A program made the translations under genes and the position numbers. Shown piece after piece: positions 87 to 47,544 of a DNA stretch of 64,000 nucleotides; positions within the stretch are counted from its first letter, which is position 1; the number at the start of each line of letters is the position of its first letter. The notes below the pieces were generated by a model. That model worked only from the letters and a program-made list of their open reading frames with translations. It was not told the DNA's origin and made no database searches. Origin of the DNA: Limnothrix sp. FACHB-406 (lineage in GTDB: Bacteria > Cyanobacteriota > Cyanobacteriia > CACIAM-69d); the NCBI RefSeq assembly GCF_014698235.1, contig NZ_JACJSP010000024.1, forward strand, positions 1 to 64,000. The letters run 5' to 3'.

Positions 87-428
87 TTATAAATCAGCTC
101 TTAGGCAATAATCGCCAATTCGCACTTCACAAACATCCAGAATGATGAGATCAAAATTGGCATAGAAATGATTGCCCAAATGGATGTTATAGCCGTAGTC
201 ACATTTAAAATTCGGTTCAATATAAATTTCCGGTGGCGCTGTGCCTAAAAGATCGCGCAAAATGCTGAACCTTAGGTTGGGTTCTTCCTCGGTGGTGGCA
301 TTATAGCGACGGCAAAGTTGGCGGGCCCGGGCCCGTTCTTGGATGAGTTGGGAATCGGAGGCTAGGTATAGTTGCCCTGCGATCATTTTGCTTTTTTCGC
401 TATGTTCTTCGGCAAAATTAGCCATCAT
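87..428 (-). pseudogene. sugar O-acetyltransferase (maltose/galactoside acetyltransferase family), 3' truncated
   Basis: The 113-residue product matches the N-terminal half of the Maa/LacA/NodL acetyltransferases: an N-terminal Mac-type segment with KMIAGQLYLASD, then FKCDYGYNIHLGNHFYANF and the first left-handed beta-helix turns ending VRIGDYC. Family members have roughly 185-200 residues and continue into further hexapeptide turns that contain the catalytic His. Here the frame ends in an unrelated LRADL and a stop directly after IGDYC, so the acetyl-CoA-binding C-terminus and active site are missing. It should be inactive for acetyl transfer from acetyl-CoA to sugars. The start at 428 is an ATG ATG pair; either codon is possible. 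Confidence 0.75.
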
Positions 429-629: not shown

Positions 630-989
630 TTAATCGGTGTACGTATAGGTTTCCCCACCGCAAATTGTGCCTGAACTGACCGAATCTGAGCCATCAGCAA
701 AGCGAGCCATGAAGTCATAGGTACAATCTTCACGGCCATCATCAATGGTGATGTCAACGGACTCGCCAGGGTTCAATACATCAACCCCCAAAATGTCCTC
801 TTCCCAAGAACTGGTACTGGGGGGCGAAGCATAGAAATGCGTCATGGTTGAGCTAGTGCCATTCACCAACGTGAAAGTCACTGACTCTGTGTCCGCTTTG
901 GCCATGGCTGCCGACAGGGCCACCATCGGGACTGCAATAGTGGCCGCCAAGGCCGATTTCAAGGTCGATCGCATTGTCCATTGAGTCAT
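630..989 (-). CDS. small exported protein, cyanobacterial family of unknown function
   Basis: The product has 119 residues. Residues 1-32 form a signal peptide (Arg/Lys near the start, a hydrophobic Ala/Val-rich core, and a probable cleavage site at AKA-D). The mature part, about 87 residues, is acidic and probably a small beta-sandwich; it contains HFYASPPSTSSWEEDILG, NPGESVDITIDDG and a pair of Cys residues (EDCTYDF and GTICGG) that could form a disulfide in the periplasm. I recall similar small secreted cyanobacterial proteins with the WxEDxLG and PGES motifs, but their role is not known. The start is supported by a GAGAG motif 8 bp before the ATG. It stands alone, with VWA genes on its 5' side. 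Confidence 0.7.
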   Translation of the reverse strand: MTQWTMRSTLKSALAATIAVPMVALSAAMAKADTESVTFTLVNGTSSTMTHFYASPPSTSSWEEDILGVDVLNPGESVDITIDDGREDCTYDFMARFADGSDSVSSGTICGGETYTYTD

Positions 990-4762: not shown

Positions 4763-6535
4763 CTAGGAGTCCCGCAAGTCCAAGGACTGATGACGACGCT
4801 GACGGCTCATTTCATAGAGCGCCATGCCCGCCGCCACCGAAGCATTCAGGCTGGGCGTGTGGCCGCTCATGGGAATGGACATCAACACATCGCAGGTTTT
4901 TTGCACCAACAGGCTCAGGCCATCGCCCTCTGCGCCAATCACCAGCACGATCGGGCCCGTGAGGTCTACCTTGTCGATCGGTTCGCTGCCTTCAGCGGCC
5001 AAGCCATGGATCCAGAAGCCAGCGGCCTTCAGGGTTTCCAGGGCTTGAACCAAGTTGCCCACCCGCGCGATATTCAAGTGTTCGATCGCGCCGGCCGCCA
5101 CCTTCACCACCGTGGAAGTTACGCCCACGGCCCGCCGTTGGGGAATGATGATACCCTTTGCGCCCAAGGCTTCGGCACTGCGGGCGATCGCACCCAAATT
5201 GTGCGGATCCGTCACCCCATCGACTGCTACCAACACGGCGCGATCGGTGGCCGCCTTGGCCTTTTCAATCACATCCGCCAAGTCCAAGTAATCGTAGGCC
5301 GCCGCCTGGGCTGCCACACCTTGGTGATTGCCCCCATCCGTCAGCCGCGCCAGTTGGCTATAGGTGGCTTCATCGATGATTGTGCCGTTGGTCTTAGCCG
5401 TTTGCAGCAGCCCCATGAACCGGGAATCGTAGCGCAACTGGGGCACGATCCAGAGTTTGTGCAGGGTGCGCTCGCTCTCTAGGGCTGCCAACACCGAATG
5501 ACGGCCGTAGATGATGTCATTGTTGGTTTCGGCTTCGCCCGTGGTTGGGTTGCCATTTTGGGTATTGCCATCAAAGGCATGGGCAGCGCGATCGCGCCCG
5601 CCGAAGTCCCGGCCTTGGCCGTCCCGGTGTTGCTCGCGGAACCCATCCCGGCGGCCGCCAAACTTGCCCCCTTCGGGACGGCGACTGAAGGCCGGGCGAT
5701 CGCCCCCGCGATCGAACCGAGGAGACCGATCCCCCCGTTCACCGCGATCACTGCGATCGATCCGTTCACCCCGATCGCCCCGGGGTGAGCCATAGTCACC
5801 ATCCCGACGCTCATCCCGGTTCCGCTCCGGCCGGTCAGGGCGATCGGGTCGATCGCCAAAGGGCCGACTGAACTTGCCTTGACCCTTGCCAAATTTCTTG
5901 CCCCGGAAGTCTGAACCCTCGCCACCGCGCGAGTCCCGGTTCTCTTCCCGGTTCCAATCGCCCCGAGGGCTAAAGGGTCGATCGCCCCCACGGTTCGGGC
6001 GATCGCCATCCCGGCCACGGCGCTCAAAGGACTGGCCGCCCTGACCGCCACCAAAAGGCTTGCGGCCAAAGGATTTACCGCCAAAGTCCCGGGACTCGCC
6101 ATCACGCTGGCCGGAGCCATAGCCCCGCGATCCTTGCGATCGATCCTGGGATCCCTGCGATCCCTGAGAGCCATAGCCCGATCGCCCCTGGGAACCATAA
6201 CCCGATCGACCTTGGGAGCCATAGCCCGATCGCTGGCCGCCGTAGTCCTTCTTTTCCTTGCCAAAGTCCCGGTCTTTGCCAAAATCCCGGCGCTCGCCCC
6301 CGTCATAGTTGCGGCGTTCCCGGTCTTCCCCGGAGAACCCGAAATCATCCGCGCGATCGCGCCGTCCCTCGTAACGCCCCTTCGAGCCTTCTCCCCCTTG
6401 GGAACCTTGATACCGTCCCTTGCCCTGAAACTGTCCGCCCTTAACCGGTTTCCCCGGACGCTCAAACTTGCTGGATTGACCGGCTTGGCCTGCTGAATTG
6501 CCGGTACGACCCTTACGATACGAAAAATCAGTCAT
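4763..6535 (-). CDS. rlmB: 23S rRNA (guanosine-2'-O-)-methyltransferase with long RG/D-rich N-terminal extension
   Basis: The last ~250 residues are a complete TrmH/RlmB SpoU-family enzyme: substrate-binding domain from [15 protein letters not shown], motif 1 [26 protein letters not shown], motif 2 [12 protein letters not shown] and motif 3 [22 protein letters not shown], the SAM-binding trefoil knot. RlmB methylates G2251 in the peptidyl-transferase centre. Residues 1 to about 340 are extraordinary: almost only Gly, Arg, Asp, Ser, Phe, Lys, with repeats such as GYGSQGRS (about four in tandem) and many GDR/RGDR boxes. This is an intrinsically disordered, RNA-binding-like RGG tail. The family is normally 240-300 residues; modest extensions of this composition are known in cyanobacteria. 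The start overlaps the mrnC stop by 4 bp, so the two genes are probably translationally coupled. Confidence 0.92.
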
Positions 6536-40748: not shown

Positions 40749-41128
40749 ACGTCAGTTCGGAATAGGGGAAGCAGCAGAAAGACGGGACTGGTTAAGCTGA
40801 GGTGTTAATCCAAACCAGCCTTAACCCAACCCCGTCGTGCTCAGGTTAGAAGCTCTGTTCTGCAAAATCGACGACTTCTGCCAAGATTTTGAAACGTAAT
40901 GGATGCGACACTTGCTCAAGGATGGTTTCAAGCAACACCAGCGTGAGCACTCCATGAGTTTCAATCTCAAGAACCGTTACCAGATTGAACACTCTCGTCA
41001 CTGCAGTCCGGTCAATTGTTGTGTGTATCTGCCCAGTGAACTGATTGCCTACTGTCATCAACCCCAGAAACCGTCCCTCGATTTGGCTGTGTTGGGAATT
41101 GAGCTACACGATTAACCCGAACTGACGT
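40749..41128 (+). mobile_element. internally deleted IS982-like element (MITE-like, 380 bp)
   Basis: The 12-bp sequence ACGTCAGTTCGG at 40749-40760 is repeated in inverted orientation (CCGAACTGACGT) at 41117-41128. Between them lies a transposase relic with matches to both ends of IS982-family transposases and no middle. The element begins 4 bp after the surE stop. I saw no clear target-site duplication outside the inverted repeats. Left (AATAGGGGAAGC) and right (GTTAATCGTGT) inner flanks differ, so the terminal repeats are short or partly degraded. It cannot make transposase but could be moved by a full-length relative. Confidence 0.75.
40837..41115 (+). pseudogene. IS982-family transposase remnant
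   Basis: From the GTG at 40837 the frame reads LRLEALFCKIDDFCQDFET, the usual N-terminus, and is then interrupted by TAA at 40897-40899 where the family normally has Gln. The same frame continues [19 protein letters not shown], and then jumps directly to [36 protein letters not shown], the C-terminal part. The catalytic DDE core, around 200 residues, is absent. So this is a deletion derivative plus at least one nonsense mutation. Confidence 0.75.
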
Positions 41129-41202
41129 GTACTGAATTCGGCAAGGCAAAAGCTGTAGATTTTCCTTGAATTTGCGCGATCGCCTCCCCTCATAACTCAG
41201 CC

Positions 41203-41288
41203 GTATAACGCCTCTAGTCAGCGGAGGCCAGTCACCTTCTCATCTGCCGATAGCCTCTTTTCCATCCGCTGTAATATGGTTGTTAGAC
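41203..41288 (-). other. attC-like recombination site downstream of the subtilase gene
   Basis: Read on the minus strand (the direction of the subtilase gene), it begins GTCTAAC (an RYYYAAC box, 41288-41282), followed by AACCATATTA, CAGCGGA (41271-41265), a ~38-nt middle, TCCGCTG (41225-41219), ACTAGAGGC and GTTATAC (a GTTRRRY-like box with one mismatch, 41209-41203). The two outer boxes and the two inner 7-mers pair as in integron attC hairpins, and the order gene-stop then attC matches gene cassettes. The spacer lacks the classical aadA-like sequence, so it could be a solo attC or a chance fold. Confidence 0.55.
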
Positions 41289-41329
41289 ATCGGTTTGACT
41301 GTGATTATAGTAGGGGGATTAATATTACC

Positions 41330-43963
41330 TTAGGAGATACTCAAACGCACCTCTTGCTGCACTTGTAGAGGTTGCTGAACCTGAACAAACGCATCATAAA
41401 TTGCAATTTTCGAGTTGATAGCTTCAAAACTGACAACTAAAGAGTAAGGAACAGTGGCCTCTGAATTCTGATTCCACCCTTCATGCCCTACTACAGCGAC
41501 ACAGAACCCCTCACGCAAATCATAAGATTGAACTAATGCCCAGTCTTTCTGGACGGTTCCTGCACTTCTAGAAACCTTTTTCACGATTCCATCAATTCCT
41601 TTGGGTTTTCGCTGATCATCACCATTAGATCTGAACTGTCTCTTGCCAAGAGTCCAACGAAATAAACCTTCACCTTCATCAGCATCTTCTGGAGCTTCAT
41701 TGTGTTCCTTGAGTACCCTGTCTAAAAACTTTTGAGGATCTTCTCCTTTTTTACTGCATGTCCAATCAAGCCATGTTGATAGATATTTCCTCCGATGTCG
41801 ACGAGTACGGCGAGGTTCAGCAACATAGGACAAAGTAATTTCAATCAAAATCTCAAAACCTTCACCTTCCCTTAAAAGACTTTCTGGTATTTGTACTTGA
41901 TAAATTTTGGCTTGCCGAGCGCGGATAACTTCATTGCCTTGAGTTGTCAAAGTTACACGATTGGGAGAATTACCCAACGCTCTATCAAGATTGGGAATTC
42001 CATAGCCCATTGTTCTAATTCCTTGATACAGTTTTGCGGCGGACTCATTTGTCCAATTGGGTAAGCGTGCTGACTGAACAATAAGTGCACGATACAATAA
42101 AGTACTTTCTTGGGGAAATATTGTCGCTAAAGTGGCTGCAATATGAGTTACTTTCGGGGCAGCAAAAGAAGTGCCGACAGCATCAGAACTGATAACTTTA
42201 CCACCGTAAAGCGTAGATCTTACTAGCTCAGGACAAACTGGCTCTGGTTTAGTGAAGCTTGGCGAAGTAGGTGAGTCAATTACATAATCTCCTCCGTACT
42301 CTACTACTTCTGGTTTGATAGTGTCCCAAATCCCTAACCCTGAACAAGAAAAGGAAGAAGGATAATCTACTTCTGCCACTGATTTAAGTGGAGGATTTTG
42401 ATAAGTAGTATGAGCAACTGAACCTACCGTCAATGCTTGAAAACTTTGGGCAGGATTTGCAACTCGTGCAGAGGGAGTTAATAAATACTGTGGATAAGGC
42501 CGCCCAGCCTTCATATGTGCATATATAGATAGCCGAGTGACAAAGCTCGAATTCGCTTCAATATTTCCCGCAGCGACAATAAATAAAATATCTTTTTCCC
42601 AAGTCAACTTATCTATTGCGGCTGCCCAAGGAGTCATAGATTGGGTTCGACAGGGAGCGATTCCTGCAACTGAATGATTGAAAATTCGAGTTCTGGTACG
42701 GTGATGGTAAAATTCTACAATTTCTTCCAGCACTTCAGGTGGAAATAGTTTTTTAGGTAGCTGATTGCTACCATCAAGAATTCTAGCGTTCTGAATCCAA
42801 CATATTGCTTGCTGACGACCTGTAGTAGGAATACCGCGAGGATAAAGAACAGCACCAGAAACTCTGGTACCATGTCCACCTCCTCGAACATAGTCAGCAG
42901 TCATATCAAGTTCTCCAGGCACCCATGATTTGGAATACTGTGAATCAATCGCAACCCGTAATTTGGGGTGAAGTTCTTGAATACCACTATCGATCACACA
43001 GACCTTAGGCGCATTAGGATCGGGAGGTTCTAGCGTAAACAGTTCCCGGTCGGATTCAGATCCATTGGGTGTCACTAAAAGAGGATTAAATTCATCAGGT
43101 TCACTGACATCAAAAATATACGGAAAGTTGAGGACAAGATCTTTCAACCCTTTTCCAAGAATCCGAATACGACAAGAAAAGCTATCTGGTAAACGTGAAA
43201 TTCCTATTTCTTCACCAGCTATATTTCTAAGAATTTCACCATTGTATTGGTTAATGAATTTTTGAAGTTGATCCGTTCGTTCTGAATATAAGTCATCCCA
43301 TTCTTCAGGAGACAAATTGTGCTTGTCTAACCATTTATTTACTCGTTGCTGATATTTTTCATTTCCTTCATTTTTCTTACGTTTAGGGCATCTTGAATAT
43401 TGCTCTTGTATATTGATACAAGCAATGCCGATGTCTACTATATACTCCTGTTGCTCTAGAATCCGTTCCCATTCTGTTTTAAGACTTTCAGAAAGAATAT
43501 ATTCTGGGCGTTGAGTTCCTTCTAGAATTTCCCAAATTGCAGGAATCTTTGTCTTCCCCTTACCTTCCTGAATCAGCTTTTCAATCTTTTTCTTAAGTTC
43601 TGATAGCCCTGTATCAGATGAAGCTCCAATGATATATCCCTGCTCAAGATCAGCAACAACCTCAATACCAAAGCTCTTGAGATCATCTGCATCAAATAAA
43701 TCAGGATCTACTTGTAGGATAAAGGATACTGCATCTGGCAATTCAGGTTTGCCCTCTTCCTCTCGTCTTTTCTTCTCCTCTTGCCAATTTGTAGTGATGA
43801 GATCAACTGAAGATTTCAGCTTGTTACCATGTCCACATGCATCTCCCCTGTTAGCCAAGGTAGTTGCTGAAACTCTGCCACCACCTCCTGGTGGAGCAGA
43901 GGCTATCCCTTCTTTAACAAGGTGAAGTGAAATGTGAGGAAAATTTTCGGAGCTATCAGGCAT
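41330..43963 (-). CDS. ietS: subtilisin-like S8 serine protease, IetS-type partner of the AAA+ ATPase
   Basis: There are 877 residues. The catalytic triad of peptidase S8 is intact: Asp325 in VCVIDSGIQE, His364 in GGGHGTRVSG and Ser599 in AVGTSFAAPK, with oxyanion Asn467 in FIVAAGN. The first ~315 residues are a charged, helical, Glu/Lys-rich region (WQEEKKRREEEGKPELPDAV) of unknown fold, and ~240 residues after the catalytic domain are beta-rich and end with FEAINSKIAIYDAFVQVQQPL. No signal peptide, so it acts in the cytoplasm. The 8-bp overlap with the ATPase gene and the same orientation match the ietA-ietS pair known for plasmid incompatibility and reported as an anti-phage module. It is AT-rich relative to its neighbours, which supports transfer. 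Confidence 0.85.
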   Translation of the reverse strand: MPDSSENFPHISLHLVKEGIASAPPGGGGRVSATTLANRGDACGHGNKLKSSVDLITTNWQEEKKRREEEGKPELPDAVSFILQVDPDLFDADDLKSFGIEVVADLEQGYIIGASSDTGLSELKKKIEKLIQEGKGKTKIPAIWEILEGTQRPEYILSESLKTEWERILEQQEYIVDIGIACINIQEQYSRCPKRKKNEGNEKYQQRVNKWLDKHNLSPEEWDDLYSERTDQLQKFINQYNGEILRNIAGEEIGISRLPDSFSCRIRILGKGLKDLVLNFPYIFDVSEPDEFNPLLVTPNGSESDRELFTLEPPDPNAPKVCVIDSGIQELHPKLRVAIDSQYSKSWVPGELDMTADYVRGGGHGTRVSGAVLYPRGIPTTGRQQAICWIQNARILDGSNQLPKKLFPPEVLEEIVEFYHHRTRTRIFNHSVAGIAPCRTQSMTPWAAAIDKLTWEKDILFIVAAGNIEANSSFVTRLSIYAHMKAGRPYPQYLLTPSARVANPAQSFQALTVGSVAHTTYQNPPLKSVAEVDYPSSFSCSGLGIWDTIKPEVVEYGGDYVIDSPTSPSFTKPEPVCPELVRSTLYGGKVISSDAVGTSFAAPKVTHIAATLATIFPQESTLLYRALIVQSARLPNWTNESAAKLYQGIRTMGYGIPNLDRALGNSPNRVTLTTQGNEVIRARQAKIYQVQIPESLLREGEGFEILIEITLSYVAEPRRTRRHRRKYLSTWLDWTCSKKGEDPQKFLDRVLKEHNEAPEDADEGEGLFRWTLGKRQFRSNGDDQRKPKGIDGIVKKVSRSAGTVQKDWALVQSYDLREGFCVAVVGHEGWNQNSEATVPYSLVVSFEAINSKIAIYDAFVQVQQPLQVQQEVRLSIS

Positions 43964-45002
43964 GAGAAACTAAAATGTCTTGGATTGACTCTTCTAAATG
44001 TTCTTGAATGACTAGCTCTTCACGATCTAGAATGGCTCGTTTTGCGGCATCCTGAGCAACCCTCGTAACTTGTGCAGCCGAAAAATTCACCATTTTATGC
44101 ACAACTAAATTCCAATCGATTGAGCCAACTTCAACTGAAGAGAGGGTCTGTTTAAGAATAGCTTCAATTTCTGGTTCTGTTGGCTTTGGCACTTCAATAG
44201 CATCATCAAATCTTCGCCAAACAGCTTCATCAAGAAACTTGGTCAAATTAGTTGCAGCCACAAGTAAGCCGTTTGAGACTTCGTACTCATCAAGTAGTTG
44301 GAGGAATGTATTGACTACACGCTTAATTTCACCAACCTCTTGGCTATCCTCACGCGATTTAGCCAGTGCGTCACATTCGTCAATAAAAAGTAAACAAGGA
44401 GAAGCAACAGCAGCTTCAAATACTTCACGCAAATTGGTAGCGGTTTCTCCTAAATACGAGGAAACCATTGCATCAAAGCGAACTTTAACTAAGGCTAAGC
44501 CGGTATTCCAAGCAATACGTTCGGCTCCCATCGTTTTACCGCACCCTGGAGAACCATAAAGCAAAATCTTTTGGCGATAGCGCAACCCATGATGGGCAAG
44601 TCGATCACGAGCAGCATATTCCCGTTCAATACGGCGAAATCGTGTTTCTATGGCATCGGCAAGGATCATATGATGCCTCAAACTGTCACGAGGAATCGTA
44701 ACAATAAACGGATGATTGAATCTATGTTTACTCGATAAGAGGGTGAGAGTATGTGTTTCGGATGCTTTAGGCGTGGCTCTCTCTGAAGAAGTTGCAGGGC
44801 TTTCTCGTACAGAATCTGATGATGAATTTTCGGGTTTGACAAGATGGGCGCTTTTCCGCAGAATGCTTTCGAGTTGATTAGCAAGGGTGGTATGCCCTAG
44901 CTTGCGTTCTTCCTCTACCACGATGGACAACATGCTTTGTATCGCCTGTGAGTCATCACTGGCAACAGCACGGAATAATCGCTTTAGCACTTCTCCTTTC
45001 AT
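43956..45002 (-). CDS. ietA: AAA+ ATPase, IetA-type partner of the subtilase
   Basis: There are 348 residues. Walker A is GSPGCGKT at 150-157, Walker B is LLFIDECD at 204-211, sensor 1 is LLVAATNLTKFLDEAVWRRFDD, and the arginine finger region is EAVWRRFD. The order matches classic AAA proteins such as spastin/FtsH-like. Residues 1-90 are a Ser-rich and helical N-terminal part (RESPATSSERATPKASETHTLT). It shares an 8-bp overlap with the protease gene, so the two are translationally coupled. In the model this suggests, the ATPase recognises or unfolds a substrate that the subtilase cuts. As with the protease gene, the base composition is low in GC and I found no GCGATCGC octamer. Confidence 0.85.
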   Translation of the reverse strand: MKGEVLKRLFRAVASDDSQAIQSMLSIVVEEERKLGHTTLANQLESILRKSAHLVKPENSSSDSVRESPATSSERATPKASETHTLTLLSSKHRFNHPFIVTIPRDSLRHHMILADAIETRFRRIEREYAARDRLAHHGLRYRQKILLYGSPGCGKTMGAERIAWNTGLALVKVRFDAMVSSYLGETATNLREVFEAAVASPCLLFIDECDALAKSREDSQEVGEIKRVVNTFLQLLDEYEVSNGLLVAATNLTKFLDEAVWRRFDDAIEVPKPTEPEIEAILKQTLSSVEVGSIDWNLVVHKMVNFSAAQVTRVAQDAAKRAILDREELVIQEHLEESIQDILVSHA

Positions 45003-45606
45003 TCTTGAACCTGTTGCCTACAGCCAAATATCCCACTTTTACAATACCTAAATCTCTTGAAATCTTATGAAAACTTTACAAAATTAAAATATGCTCTCTT
45101 ATAAATTGGGTTGACAACGATGTCTGACTAAGTAGCGTCTGCGAAGTAATGATACTAATTGCACAGCAGTCATCCACAAGTACTACCTAGTCCATTTTCA
45201 CTAAATCTGGCTTTCCGAATCAGCTAGCACCCTAGAAGTTATTACTTCTAACTGAGGAATATCTTCTTAAGCCGCTTTCTAGGCGATTTCTATATCTGTA
45301 TTGAAATAATCATGAACCAACTGATCTCGCATCTCGGCAACATCTCGCCAGGGAACATCAGGATAGTGGCTTCTTGCTGAATCTGGAATGTACTTCACAG
45401 CTTCGCCAATAGCTTTGGTCGCCCTTGAAACCGCAAGTACCTTCTCCAAATTTTGTGAGAAGACTTCAGCCAGAATGCCCGCTGTAAACTGGATAGTGCC
45501 GTAATCATGATGAGCAGGTGAGAGCGTCTTTGAGCAAGCAATCTTTCACTGAAAATCATCACTGCACAGGCACTACCCTTGCTCCCACGAATCCTAGAGA
45601 TGCAGG
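45003..45606. other. 604-bp region upstream of the ietA-like gene with a decayed toxin gene
   Basis: The part from 45003 to 45200 is AT-rich and should hold the ietA promoter on the minus strand; there is no confident -35/-10 call. The remainder holds the hepT remnant described separately and then joins the gyrB 3' end. Taken together it is the left boundary of the AT-rich island, since GC-rich sequence resumes at gyrB. Confidence 0.55.
45201..45500 (-). pseudogene. hepT-like (HEPN, DUF86) toxin remnant
   Basis: Reading the minus strand from about 45500 gives QFTAGILAEVFSQNLEKVL, AVSRATKAIGEAVKYIPD, SHYPDVPWRDVAEMRDQLVHDYFNTDIEIA. The last part contains the HEPN signature R-x4-H-x-Y (RDQLVHDY). 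After IEIA come TAG (45282-45280 region), KAA, TAA, then EDIPQLEVITSRVLAD, and a final stop at 45203-45201. The usual ~30 N-terminal residues are unclear and no start codon is found, so this is a decayed HepT. The normal partner antitoxin MntA (a nucleotidyltransferase) is not present at this locus. Confidence 0.75.
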
Positions 45607-47544
45607 CTAAATATCCAGGTCGGTGAGGTTCAGCTTGGCCCCGTAGGTTTCGATAAATTCCCGGCGGGGAGCCACCCGATCGCCCATCAAGATTGTGAAG
45701 ATTCGATCGGCCTCGGCCGCATCATCAATTTCCACCCGTTTCATGGTGCGGGTTTCCGGGTTCATGGTGGTGTCCCAAAGCTGATCGGGCATCATTTCAC
45801 CCAAACCTTTGAACCGCTGAATGTTGTAGTTGGCATTGGCCGGGAAGCCCGCCAAAATCTGCTGCAACTCCCGATCGCTGTAGCAATATTGATGATTCCG
45901 GCCGCGCTCCACCTTGTATAGGGGCGGGCAGGCAATATAGATGTGACCTTGCTCCACCAATTCCCGTTGATAGCGATAGAAAAAGGTCAGCAGCAGGGTG
46001 CGAATGTGGGCACCGTCCACGTCCGCATCGGTCATCAATACCACCCGGTGATAACGCAGTTGAGAAACATCAAATTCCTCGCCTTTGATACCTAATCCCA
46101 GGGCAGAAATTAGTGACTGAATTTCGGTGTTTTTATAGATCTTGGCATCGTCGGTTTTCTCGATGTTTAGGATCTTCCCACGCAGGGGCAAAATGGCTTG
46201 GAATCGACGGTTTCGTCCTTGCTTGGCGGAACCGCCTGCCGAGTCTCCTTCCACAATAAAAATTTCTGATTCGGACGGATCCTTCGAGCTGCAATCGGCT
46301 AATTTACCCGGCAAGGGCGACGATTCCAACACCGATTTCCGGCGCACCAATTCCCGGGCCCGGCGAGCCGCTTCGGCCGCATTAAAGGCCTGAATCGCCT
46401 TTTCCAAAATGGAGTCCGCCACGCCGGGCCGGAACTCCAAATATTCCGTGAAAACTTCCCCCACCAGGGAATCCACAATGCCGCGTACCTCGGGGTTGCC
46501 GAGTTTGGTTTTGGTTTGTCCTTCAAATTCTGGATCGGGCACTTTCACGGAAATAATCGCCGTCAAGCCTTCCCGAATATGTTCGCCGCCCAGGTTGGCA
46601 TCGCCATCTTTCAGCTTGTTGCGCTTGCGGGCGATCGCGTTCATGGTGCGGGTCAAAACGGCCTTCAACCCTTCCAGGTGGGTTCCGCCATCCACGGTGC
46701 GGATGTTGTTGGCAAACCCGAATAGGTTGTCTGTGTAGGCATCGATCGACCATTGCATGGCCACTTCCACATGCACCCCGTCGCGCTCCCCTTGCACGTA
46801 GAGAATTTCCTCGTGGAGGGGCAGGCGATCGCGGTTGATATAGGCTACATATTCCCGAATGCCGCCTTCGTAGCAGTAGGTTTCAACCTTGGGTTGCTCG
46901 GTACGCAACAGCTCCAGCCGGTGATCGCTGAAGGTGATTTTCACGCCCGCATTCAGATAGGCCAGCTCCCGCAGCCGACTGGCGAGGGTGGCGTAGTCAA
47001 ATTCTGTGCCGGTGATGAAAATTTCGCGATCGGGCAAAAAGGTGACCCGCGTGCCCGTTTGGGCATCGTCGCTGGGTTCGCTGGTCAGGGGCCCTTGGGG
47101 GATGCCTCGGCTGTAGCGTTGAACGTGCCGTTGGCTCAGGCGCTTAACTTCAACAATCACTTCTTCCGAGAGGGCATTCACCACGGACACGCCCACGCCA
47201 TGGAGACCGCCGGATACTTTGTAGCCACCGCCGCCGAATTTGCCGCCCGCGTGCAGCACGGTCATCACGGTTTCGAGGGCGGACTTGCCGGTTTGGGGGT
47301 GAATGTCAACGGGGATGCCGCGGCCGTCGTCGGTGACGGTAACGGAGCCGTTGGCATTCAGATCCACTTCAATGTGGGTGCAATAACCAGCAAGGGCTTC
47401 ATCGATCGAGTTGTCCACCACCTCGTAAACTAGATGATGGAGACCGCGCGGCCCAGTGGAGCCGATGTACATTCCCGGTCGCTTGCGGACAGGTTCAAGC
47501 CCTTCAAGAACCTGAATTTGATCTGCCCCATAGTTGCTGGTCAT
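45607..47544 (-). CDS. gyrB: DNA gyrase subunit B
   Basis: There are 645 residues from the ATG at 47544, which has GGAG 5 bp upstream; a GTG 6 bp further out is possible. The GHKL ATPase begins [43 protein letters not shown], with [22 protein letters not shown] and [12 protein letters not shown]. The transducer and TOPRIM domain follow: [29 protein letters not shown] and [22 protein letters not shown] with the metal-binding DxD. The end is [12 protein letters not shown]. GyrB works with GyrA to introduce negative supercoils. It lies next to the accessory island but is itself typical GC-rich chromosomal sequence. Confidence 0.97.

Follow-up and report, generated by a model that had tools for sequence, protein, structure and literature searches.

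The 64,000-nucleotide stretch of Limnothrix sp. FACHB-406 DNA analyzed here, which we call the window, carries two genes that we assign to IetAS: ietA, for an ATPase, and ietS, for a protease (Table 1). We consider what this pair, and the copies of ietA that some phages carry without ietS, may do. A preliminary description, made from the letters alone, had proposed two overlapping genes encoding a classic AAA ATPase with intact Walker motifs and a subtilase with an intact Asp325/His364/Ser599 triad, and had equated them with ietA-ietS. Its coordinates, strand, overlap and protein lengths proved exact. Pfam places AAA on IetA residues 146-272 (E 1.5e-30) and Peptidase_S8 on IetS residues 318-640 (E 1.6e-27). 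In alignments, D325, H364 and S599 are invariant across 34 diverse IetS relatives, as are the Walker A, Walker B (D208/E209) and arginine-finger (R263/R264) positions across 42 IetA relatives. The ietA-ietS identity is likewise upheld, in that the PADLOC profile search (IetA 6.6e-80, IetS 9.2e-57), gene order, overlap and intact motifs agree.

The window therefore holds what characterizes IetAS in the wide sense: an ATPase with its motifs and an IetA profile match, an S8 protease with its triad and an IetS profile match, and ietA followed by ietS, adjacent, co-oriented and with a short overlap. The NCBIfam models are another matter, with IetS scoring 124.3 bits against an equivalog cut-off of 900 (NF042956, IteS) and IetA 228.7 bits against 510 (NF042959, IteA). 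Because these scores lie far under the cut-offs, we use the name in the wide sense and not for the annotated iteAS equivalog. Judged by its sequence, the pair is an IetAS of a divergent, mainly cyanobacterial clade; in itself it is an additional representative of a type already known. Relative to the nearest relative, the ratio of replacement to synonymous substitution rates (dN/dS) is 0.12 for ietS and 0.11 for ietA, so both genes appear to be maintained by purifying selection.

Table 1. Features of the ietAS locus, parts of the two proteins, and the CRISPR (clustered regularly interspaced short palindromic repeats) array discussed in the text. Positions refer to the window unless stated otherwise.
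Feature	Position	Strand	Description or basis
ietS	41330..43963	minus	877-aa subtilase, putative toxin; open reading frame, PADLOC, Pfam, alignment, model
ietA	43956..45002	minus	348-aa AAA ATPase, putative antitoxin; open reading frame, PADLOC, Pfam, alignment, model
ietA/ietS overlap, 8 bp	43956..43963	minus	equal size in Leptolyngbya and Synechocystis plasmid copies
IetA Walker A, residues 150-157 (GSPGCGKT)	44532..44555	minus	alignment
IetA Walker B, residues 204-209 (LLFIDE)	44376..44393	minus	alignment
IetA arginine fingers R263/R264	44211..44216	minus	alignment
IetS catalytic Asp325	42989..42991	minus	invariant, 34 relatives
IetS catalytic His364	42872..42874	minus	invariant, 34 relatives
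IetS catalytic Ser599	42167..42169	minus	invariant, 34 relatives
IetA predicted parts	residues 1-53; ~55-94; 99-348		helical domain; disordered linker; AAA module (model)
IetS predicted parts	residues 1-72; ~73-300; ~308-664; ~665-863		N-terminal arm; propeptide-like; S8 catalytic; jelly-roll-like (model)
Transferred unit, both genes plus ~110-120 bp each side	41218..45125	minus	87% DNA identity to copy in another cyanobacterial family (G012)
Whole island between surE and gyrB, at rearrangement junction	40749..45597		no counterpart at either gene in close relative G001
Probable insertion-sequence remnant	40749..41135		terminal inverted repeats by eye; 81% partial copy on contig C3
Decayed HepT-like toxin gene, upstream of ietA	45280..45515 (approximate)	minus	translation with in-frame stop; Pfam HepT-like E 5.6e-15
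CRISPR array L252	63-4210 of contig C324, genome G367		57 repeats, 56 spacers; spacer comparison

Horizontal acquisition of the pair, also suspected in the preliminary description, is supported by low GC (guanine plus cytosine) content, missing HIP1 octamers, patchy occurrence and a protein identity of 83-95% across families. The description had noted AT-rich genes in GC-rich flanks and the lack of the octamer, and both observations bear measurement. GC content is 0.39-0.44 over 41-45 kb (about 0.42) against mostly 0.55-0.62 around it (about 0.58), and none of the window's 79 HIP1 sites (about 2 expected from shuffles) lies in the 5.4 kb at 41184-46630, where the window's overall density would predict about 6.7 (Poisson P about 0.001). 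IetS matches occur in 43 of 390 genomes of the class and form two groups, about 51-100% identical (the window's clade) and about 30% identical (canonical); IetS is absent from the two same-genus and three same-family genomes compared. IetS and GyrB identities are 89 versus 81% for G012, 85 versus 63% for G093 and 90-95 versus 76% for G306. Comparison with close relatives gave no conserved synteny with normal base composition, which would have spoken against acquisition, because none of the five nearest genomes has the pair and surE and gyrB lie 102 kb apart in G001 (gyrB 97% identical in DNA). Since the downstream flanks of these two genes in G001 have their counterparts on two other contigs in the window's genome (G000), no clean empty site can be demonstrated. 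The island has a probable insertion-sequence remnant on one side, to which Pfam gave no match, and on the other, between ietA and gyrB, a HepT-like toxin remnant beside which no MNT partner was seen.

IetS matches were also found in 463 plasmid records, and the copy nearest to the window's is adjoined by a C5 methylase gene and a type II restriction endonuclease-like (REase_II-like) gene. On Leptolyngbya boryana plasmid pLBX (L080, 1810-13661), ietAS lies between HmaB-like and HmaC-like genes, as if it had been inserted into an Hma defence system. Two loci in which IetS appeared split in two (L052/L061) were dropped, as the split is a 1-bp frameshift in a metagenome-assembled genome whose contig title gives a coverage of 3.9.

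Within the mainly cyanobacterial clade, the two genes do not share one history. In four operons from Synechocystis plasmids and other cyanobacteria (L065, L069, L070, L081), IetA is 83-87% identical to that of the window, but IetS only 55-57%. These Synechocystis-type operons group with the window's group in the IetA tree (support 100/98) and with Leptolyngbya plasmids in the IetS tree (100/100), and approximately unbiased (AU) tests reject the alternative topologies (p 0.003 for IetA, 2e-11 for IetS). DNA identity to the window falls sharply at the gene junction, about 1.05 kb after ietA begins; for L081, it is 82-95% across most of ietA but 42-70% in ietS. Rate differences do not explain this break, because synonymous distances differ between the genes (0.46 for ietA versus a saturated 0.73 for ietS in one pair of operons), and because the ratio of IetS to IetA replacement distances is 2.7-4.9 in three Synechocystis-type operons versus 0.8-1.6 in the ten others measured. 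These patterns indicate that ietA and ietS are exchangeable, past recombination having broken the operon where the two genes meet.

Scanning viral contigs for matches to the IetA alignment yielded 80 loci. Among 88 viral loci examined, IetS is present at 74; of the 14 without it, four are uninformative because the contig stops at ietA or shortly beyond it (L113, L119, L145 and L147, not counted as lone), while ten have room for it. An IetS profile built on the cyanobacterial clade, run with two positive controls over the full length of these ten contigs, found no match even with E allowed up to 1. Two further phage records considered as lone IetA, PV036426 and MT836043, have IetS next door, and we left aside the IetA-like AAA genes in Rhodobacter phages, as well as FtsH-like ones in large Pseudomonas phages, whose identity as IetA is not established. 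A terminase gene is present on all three contigs with a full-length lone IetA (G390, G391, G392) and on G394, and three of these four also have tail genes. The 100-kb G391 encodes terminase, tail fibre J, clamp genes and a DnaB helicase that is 74% identical to DnaB of Aphanizomenon phage CL131; G390 has terminase, portal and minor tail genes, G394 terminase, portal, major head and tape measure genes, and G392 terminase, endolysin and many transposases.

IetA is full-length in loci L095, L096 and L097 and lacks its N-terminal domain in L100-L103; all seven copies keep Walker A, Walker B and the arginine fingers and match IetA in PADLOC. In viral contigs L114/L115 and L158, a canonical IetA (E 3e-129 and 2e-148) is followed by only the first ~95 IetS residues, as an open frame at 5882-6290 and 2576-2900, respectively; this N-terminal arm may be what IetA binds. 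Explaining the lone status on the IetA tree takes a minimum of 4 changes. To the extent that sequence can tell, IetA has been retained intact in several phage lineages whose ietS is either wrecked or missing.

How ietS was lost can be followed in two of these loci. Over 1146 bp, the ietA region of L096 matches the intact operon L067 (genome G367) at 98.8% identity, the corresponding figure for L095 being 95%. In both phages, ietS begins ATG GTT TAA, with a stop at codon 3, versus ATG GTT CAA in host operons L067 and L072. Homology of L095 to L072 ends 33 bp into ietS, while the remains of ietS in L096 are 28 bp and a separate 48-bp piece. Because the tree groups L096 with L067 and places L095 outside (99/94), the shared stop reflects either the same change made twice or exchange between phages. 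The ietA genes of L095 and L096 differ by 35 synonymous and 8 replacement changes (dN/dS 0.06), although some of this divergence may stem from hosts; L100 and L102 differ by 14 and 7 (0.14), and L102 and L103 by three changes only, too few for a reading of selection. With dN/dS of 0.06-0.15 among diverged copies, phage ietA is evidently under purifying selection.

IetA also occurs without a full IetS partner in three of the 390 cyanobacterial genomes: G244 has an intact IetA with an IetS fragment, G340 a truncated IetA, and G003 one with broken motifs. The last, from a genome of the window's family, is a lone N-truncated relative (L236, contig C55, 4338-5159) whose Walker B is broken and whose pore loop is missing. 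The reverse of the phage case is seen on Planctomyces sp. SH-PL62 plasmid pPL62-2 (L083, 5905-8460), where an IetS relative with an intact triad directly follows parA-parB and no IetA was found on the plasmid.

One phage could be linked to a host. A 20-kb stretch of G391 was compared with the 390 cyanobacterial genomes, and short near-identical matches clustered in G367 alone. They fall within its CRISPR array, where 13 of the 56 spacers match this phage, on both sides of its lone ietA. The same spacers gave no match to the six other phages compared, and with the spacers reversed there was no hit at all. G391 is, in its own right, an intensively targeted cyanophage. Since the closest intact ietAS lies in this genome too, a phage with IetA but without IetS encounters hosts that have the cognate pair. 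An antitoxin carried by a phage without its toxin, combined with hosts that have the cognate system, is the pattern of an antitoxin mimic, and it was found for phage G391 only.

Structural models give the two proteins the parts listed in Table 1. The IetA model (predicted local distance difference test, pLDDT, 81) has an N-terminal three-helix domain, and its AAA module is closest to PAN and FtsH (Z 25.8). The preliminary description had regarded the parts of the protease flanking the catalytic domain as being of unknown fold and as possible sensors. However, the whole IetS model (pLDDT 85; predicted template modelling score, pTM, 0.89) aligns with the unprocessed subtilase ProN-Tk-SP over residues 107-863 (Foldseek 1.3e-21; VIA Z 26.6, root-mean-square deviation, rmsd, 6.0, 465 aligned) and with KP-43 up to residue 846 (Z 29.2, rmsd 2.8, 384 aligned). 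Our reading of these whole-protein matches is that IetS has a propeptide-like N-part, a catalytic core and a jelly-roll-like C-part, which leaves the sensor role unsupported. In a search of solved structures by sequence, the matches listed comprised only general subtilases and p97-type ATPases. The N-part is the least conserved region of IetS, and in two relatives of 1140 and 1068 aa (L060:637-4059 and L073:598-3804) the N-terminal ~290 residues are tandemly duplicated in one frame; together these observations suggest that the N-part behaves as a module.

In two systems with homologous proteins, SGI1 sgiAT (PMC5006074) and Mycoplasma TA132/3 (PMC8562856), the protease kills and the ATPase rescues, and we therefore propose that IetA restrains IetS. 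We judge it reasonably probable that the window holds an acquired, divergent IetAS that works as follows. IetS would be a cytoplasmic subtilisin-type protease, toxic when free, and IetA a classic AAA ATPase that keeps it harmless. Infection would disable, titrate or divert IetA, and the freed IetS would then degrade proteins and so abort the infection. An IetA supplied by the phage would restore the restraint, as a counter-defence. The restraint is taken from the homologues by analogy, while release on infection and the antidote action are steps that we infer. With slightly less assurance, though still above even, we suggest that phages have repeatedly captured host ietAS, lost or destroyed the protease gene and kept the ATPase to act specifically against IetAS, in which case whether an infected cell dies would depend on how much free IetA it contains. 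Since closely similar ATPases occur with proteases that are alike by only ~55%, a single phage IetA may neutralize several IetS subtypes.

It is important to consider the points that weigh against this proposal. Evidence on the pair and on phage IetA is computational throughout, and an anti-phage activity of the divergent clade is assumed from that of the family. The phages are metagenomic contigs, with a host link for G391 only, and the G367 assembly is fragmented (about 1110 contigs), its ietAS lying on a 5.1-kb contig. Paired IetA and IetS are commoner than lone IetA on viral contigs. No close relative of the window's IetA, and thus no lone IetA of its subtype, was found in the viral contigs, so the phage evidence concerns sister subtypes. 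Finally, the lone IetA beside a decayed IetS in bacterial genome G244 means that a phage could have taken up a copy already free of its toxin; countering this, the stop codon is common to both phage copies and missing from the intact hosts.

A rival suggestion is that lone phage IetA is the decaying leftover of a captured ietAS and no counter-defence. Toxin remnants are indeed still visible in L095, L096, L114/L115 and L158, and decaying copies do occur in bacteria. However, the phage copies show none of the visible damage of the bacterial lone copies in G003 and G340, catalytic motifs are complete in all cyanophage copies, and synonymous differences outnumber replacement differences between L095 and L096 (35 versus 8) as well as in the toxin-free lineage L100-L103 (14 versus 7), which is present on several contigs. 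We regard decay as unlikely, though deserving of attention.

Somewhat more doubtful is a role in addiction only, in which IetAS would serve to stabilize its carrier element, as it does on pTiC58 and SGI1, without acting against phage. Element stabilization is the founding function of the family, sgiAT stabilizes its island, plasmid copies are many (the 463 records above), and the neighbouring HepT remnant suggests a stretch that collects toxin-antitoxin genes. Yet the window's copy sits on a chromosomal stretch, and pure addiction predicts neither phages that keep the antitoxin alone with the toxin gene destroyed nor a host with an intact operon carrying spacers against that phage. A phage that neutralizes a resident addiction element could, admittedly, also account for a lone antitoxin. 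A proteolytic machine, in which IetA unfolds substrates and passes them to IetS, much as FtsH, Clp or PAN-proteasome work, would suit the resemblance of the AAA module to PAN and FtsH (Z 25-26) and the joint encoding of ATPase and protease. It is nevertheless improbable, given that the IetS model best matches stand-alone secreted subtilases, that homologous proteases are toxic without their ATPase, and that phages retain the ATPase alone.

Returning to the proposal that phage IetA acts as an antidote to IetS, we note that the action of IetAS against phage has been described as unknown (PMC11878078). The lone phage antitoxin, the wreckage of the toxin gene and the CRISPR-linked host point to IetA as the control point, and phage lone IetA offers a direct route to probing this poorly understood system. 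What the analysis supplies is a candidate inhibitor, a matched host-phage pair and, for the interface, a natural swap series of one ATPase type with two protease types. We found no report of phage-borne IetA, or of lone phage IetA as a putative counter-defence, in the open-access literature, of which our coverage was limited. Antitoxin mimics against other systems are known, namely phage mimics directed at toxin-antitoxin defence such as that against DarTG (PMC11481870) and TifA (PMC10853763), as are plasmid orphan antitoxins (PMC11541004).

Several known systems can be compared with these findings. The window pair has gene order, close overlap and the combination of AAA ATPase with S8 protease in common with pTiC58 ietA-ietS and the anti-phage IetAS set, but its IetS is only about 25-30% identical to canonical forms, and its mainly cyanobacterial clade has exchanged ietA and ietS. 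Domain pairing and antitoxin-first gene order are common to SGI1 sgiAT, Mycoplasma TA132/3 and the window pair; however, the sequence similarity is distant, and toxicity was seen in those homologues, whereas the window's clade is known from genes. ProN-Tk-SP and KP-43 are secreted enzymes that, like the IetS model, have a catalytic core with N-terminal propeptide-like and C-terminal beta-rich parts; IetS differs in that inspection by eye shows no sign of export, its N-terminal region is longer and it is encoded next to an AAA partner. Like phage antitoxin mimics and plasmid orphan antitoxins, lone phage IetA is the presumed neutralizing half of a pair, on a mobile element without the toxin, but it differs in still having the wreckage of ietS beside it on some contigs.

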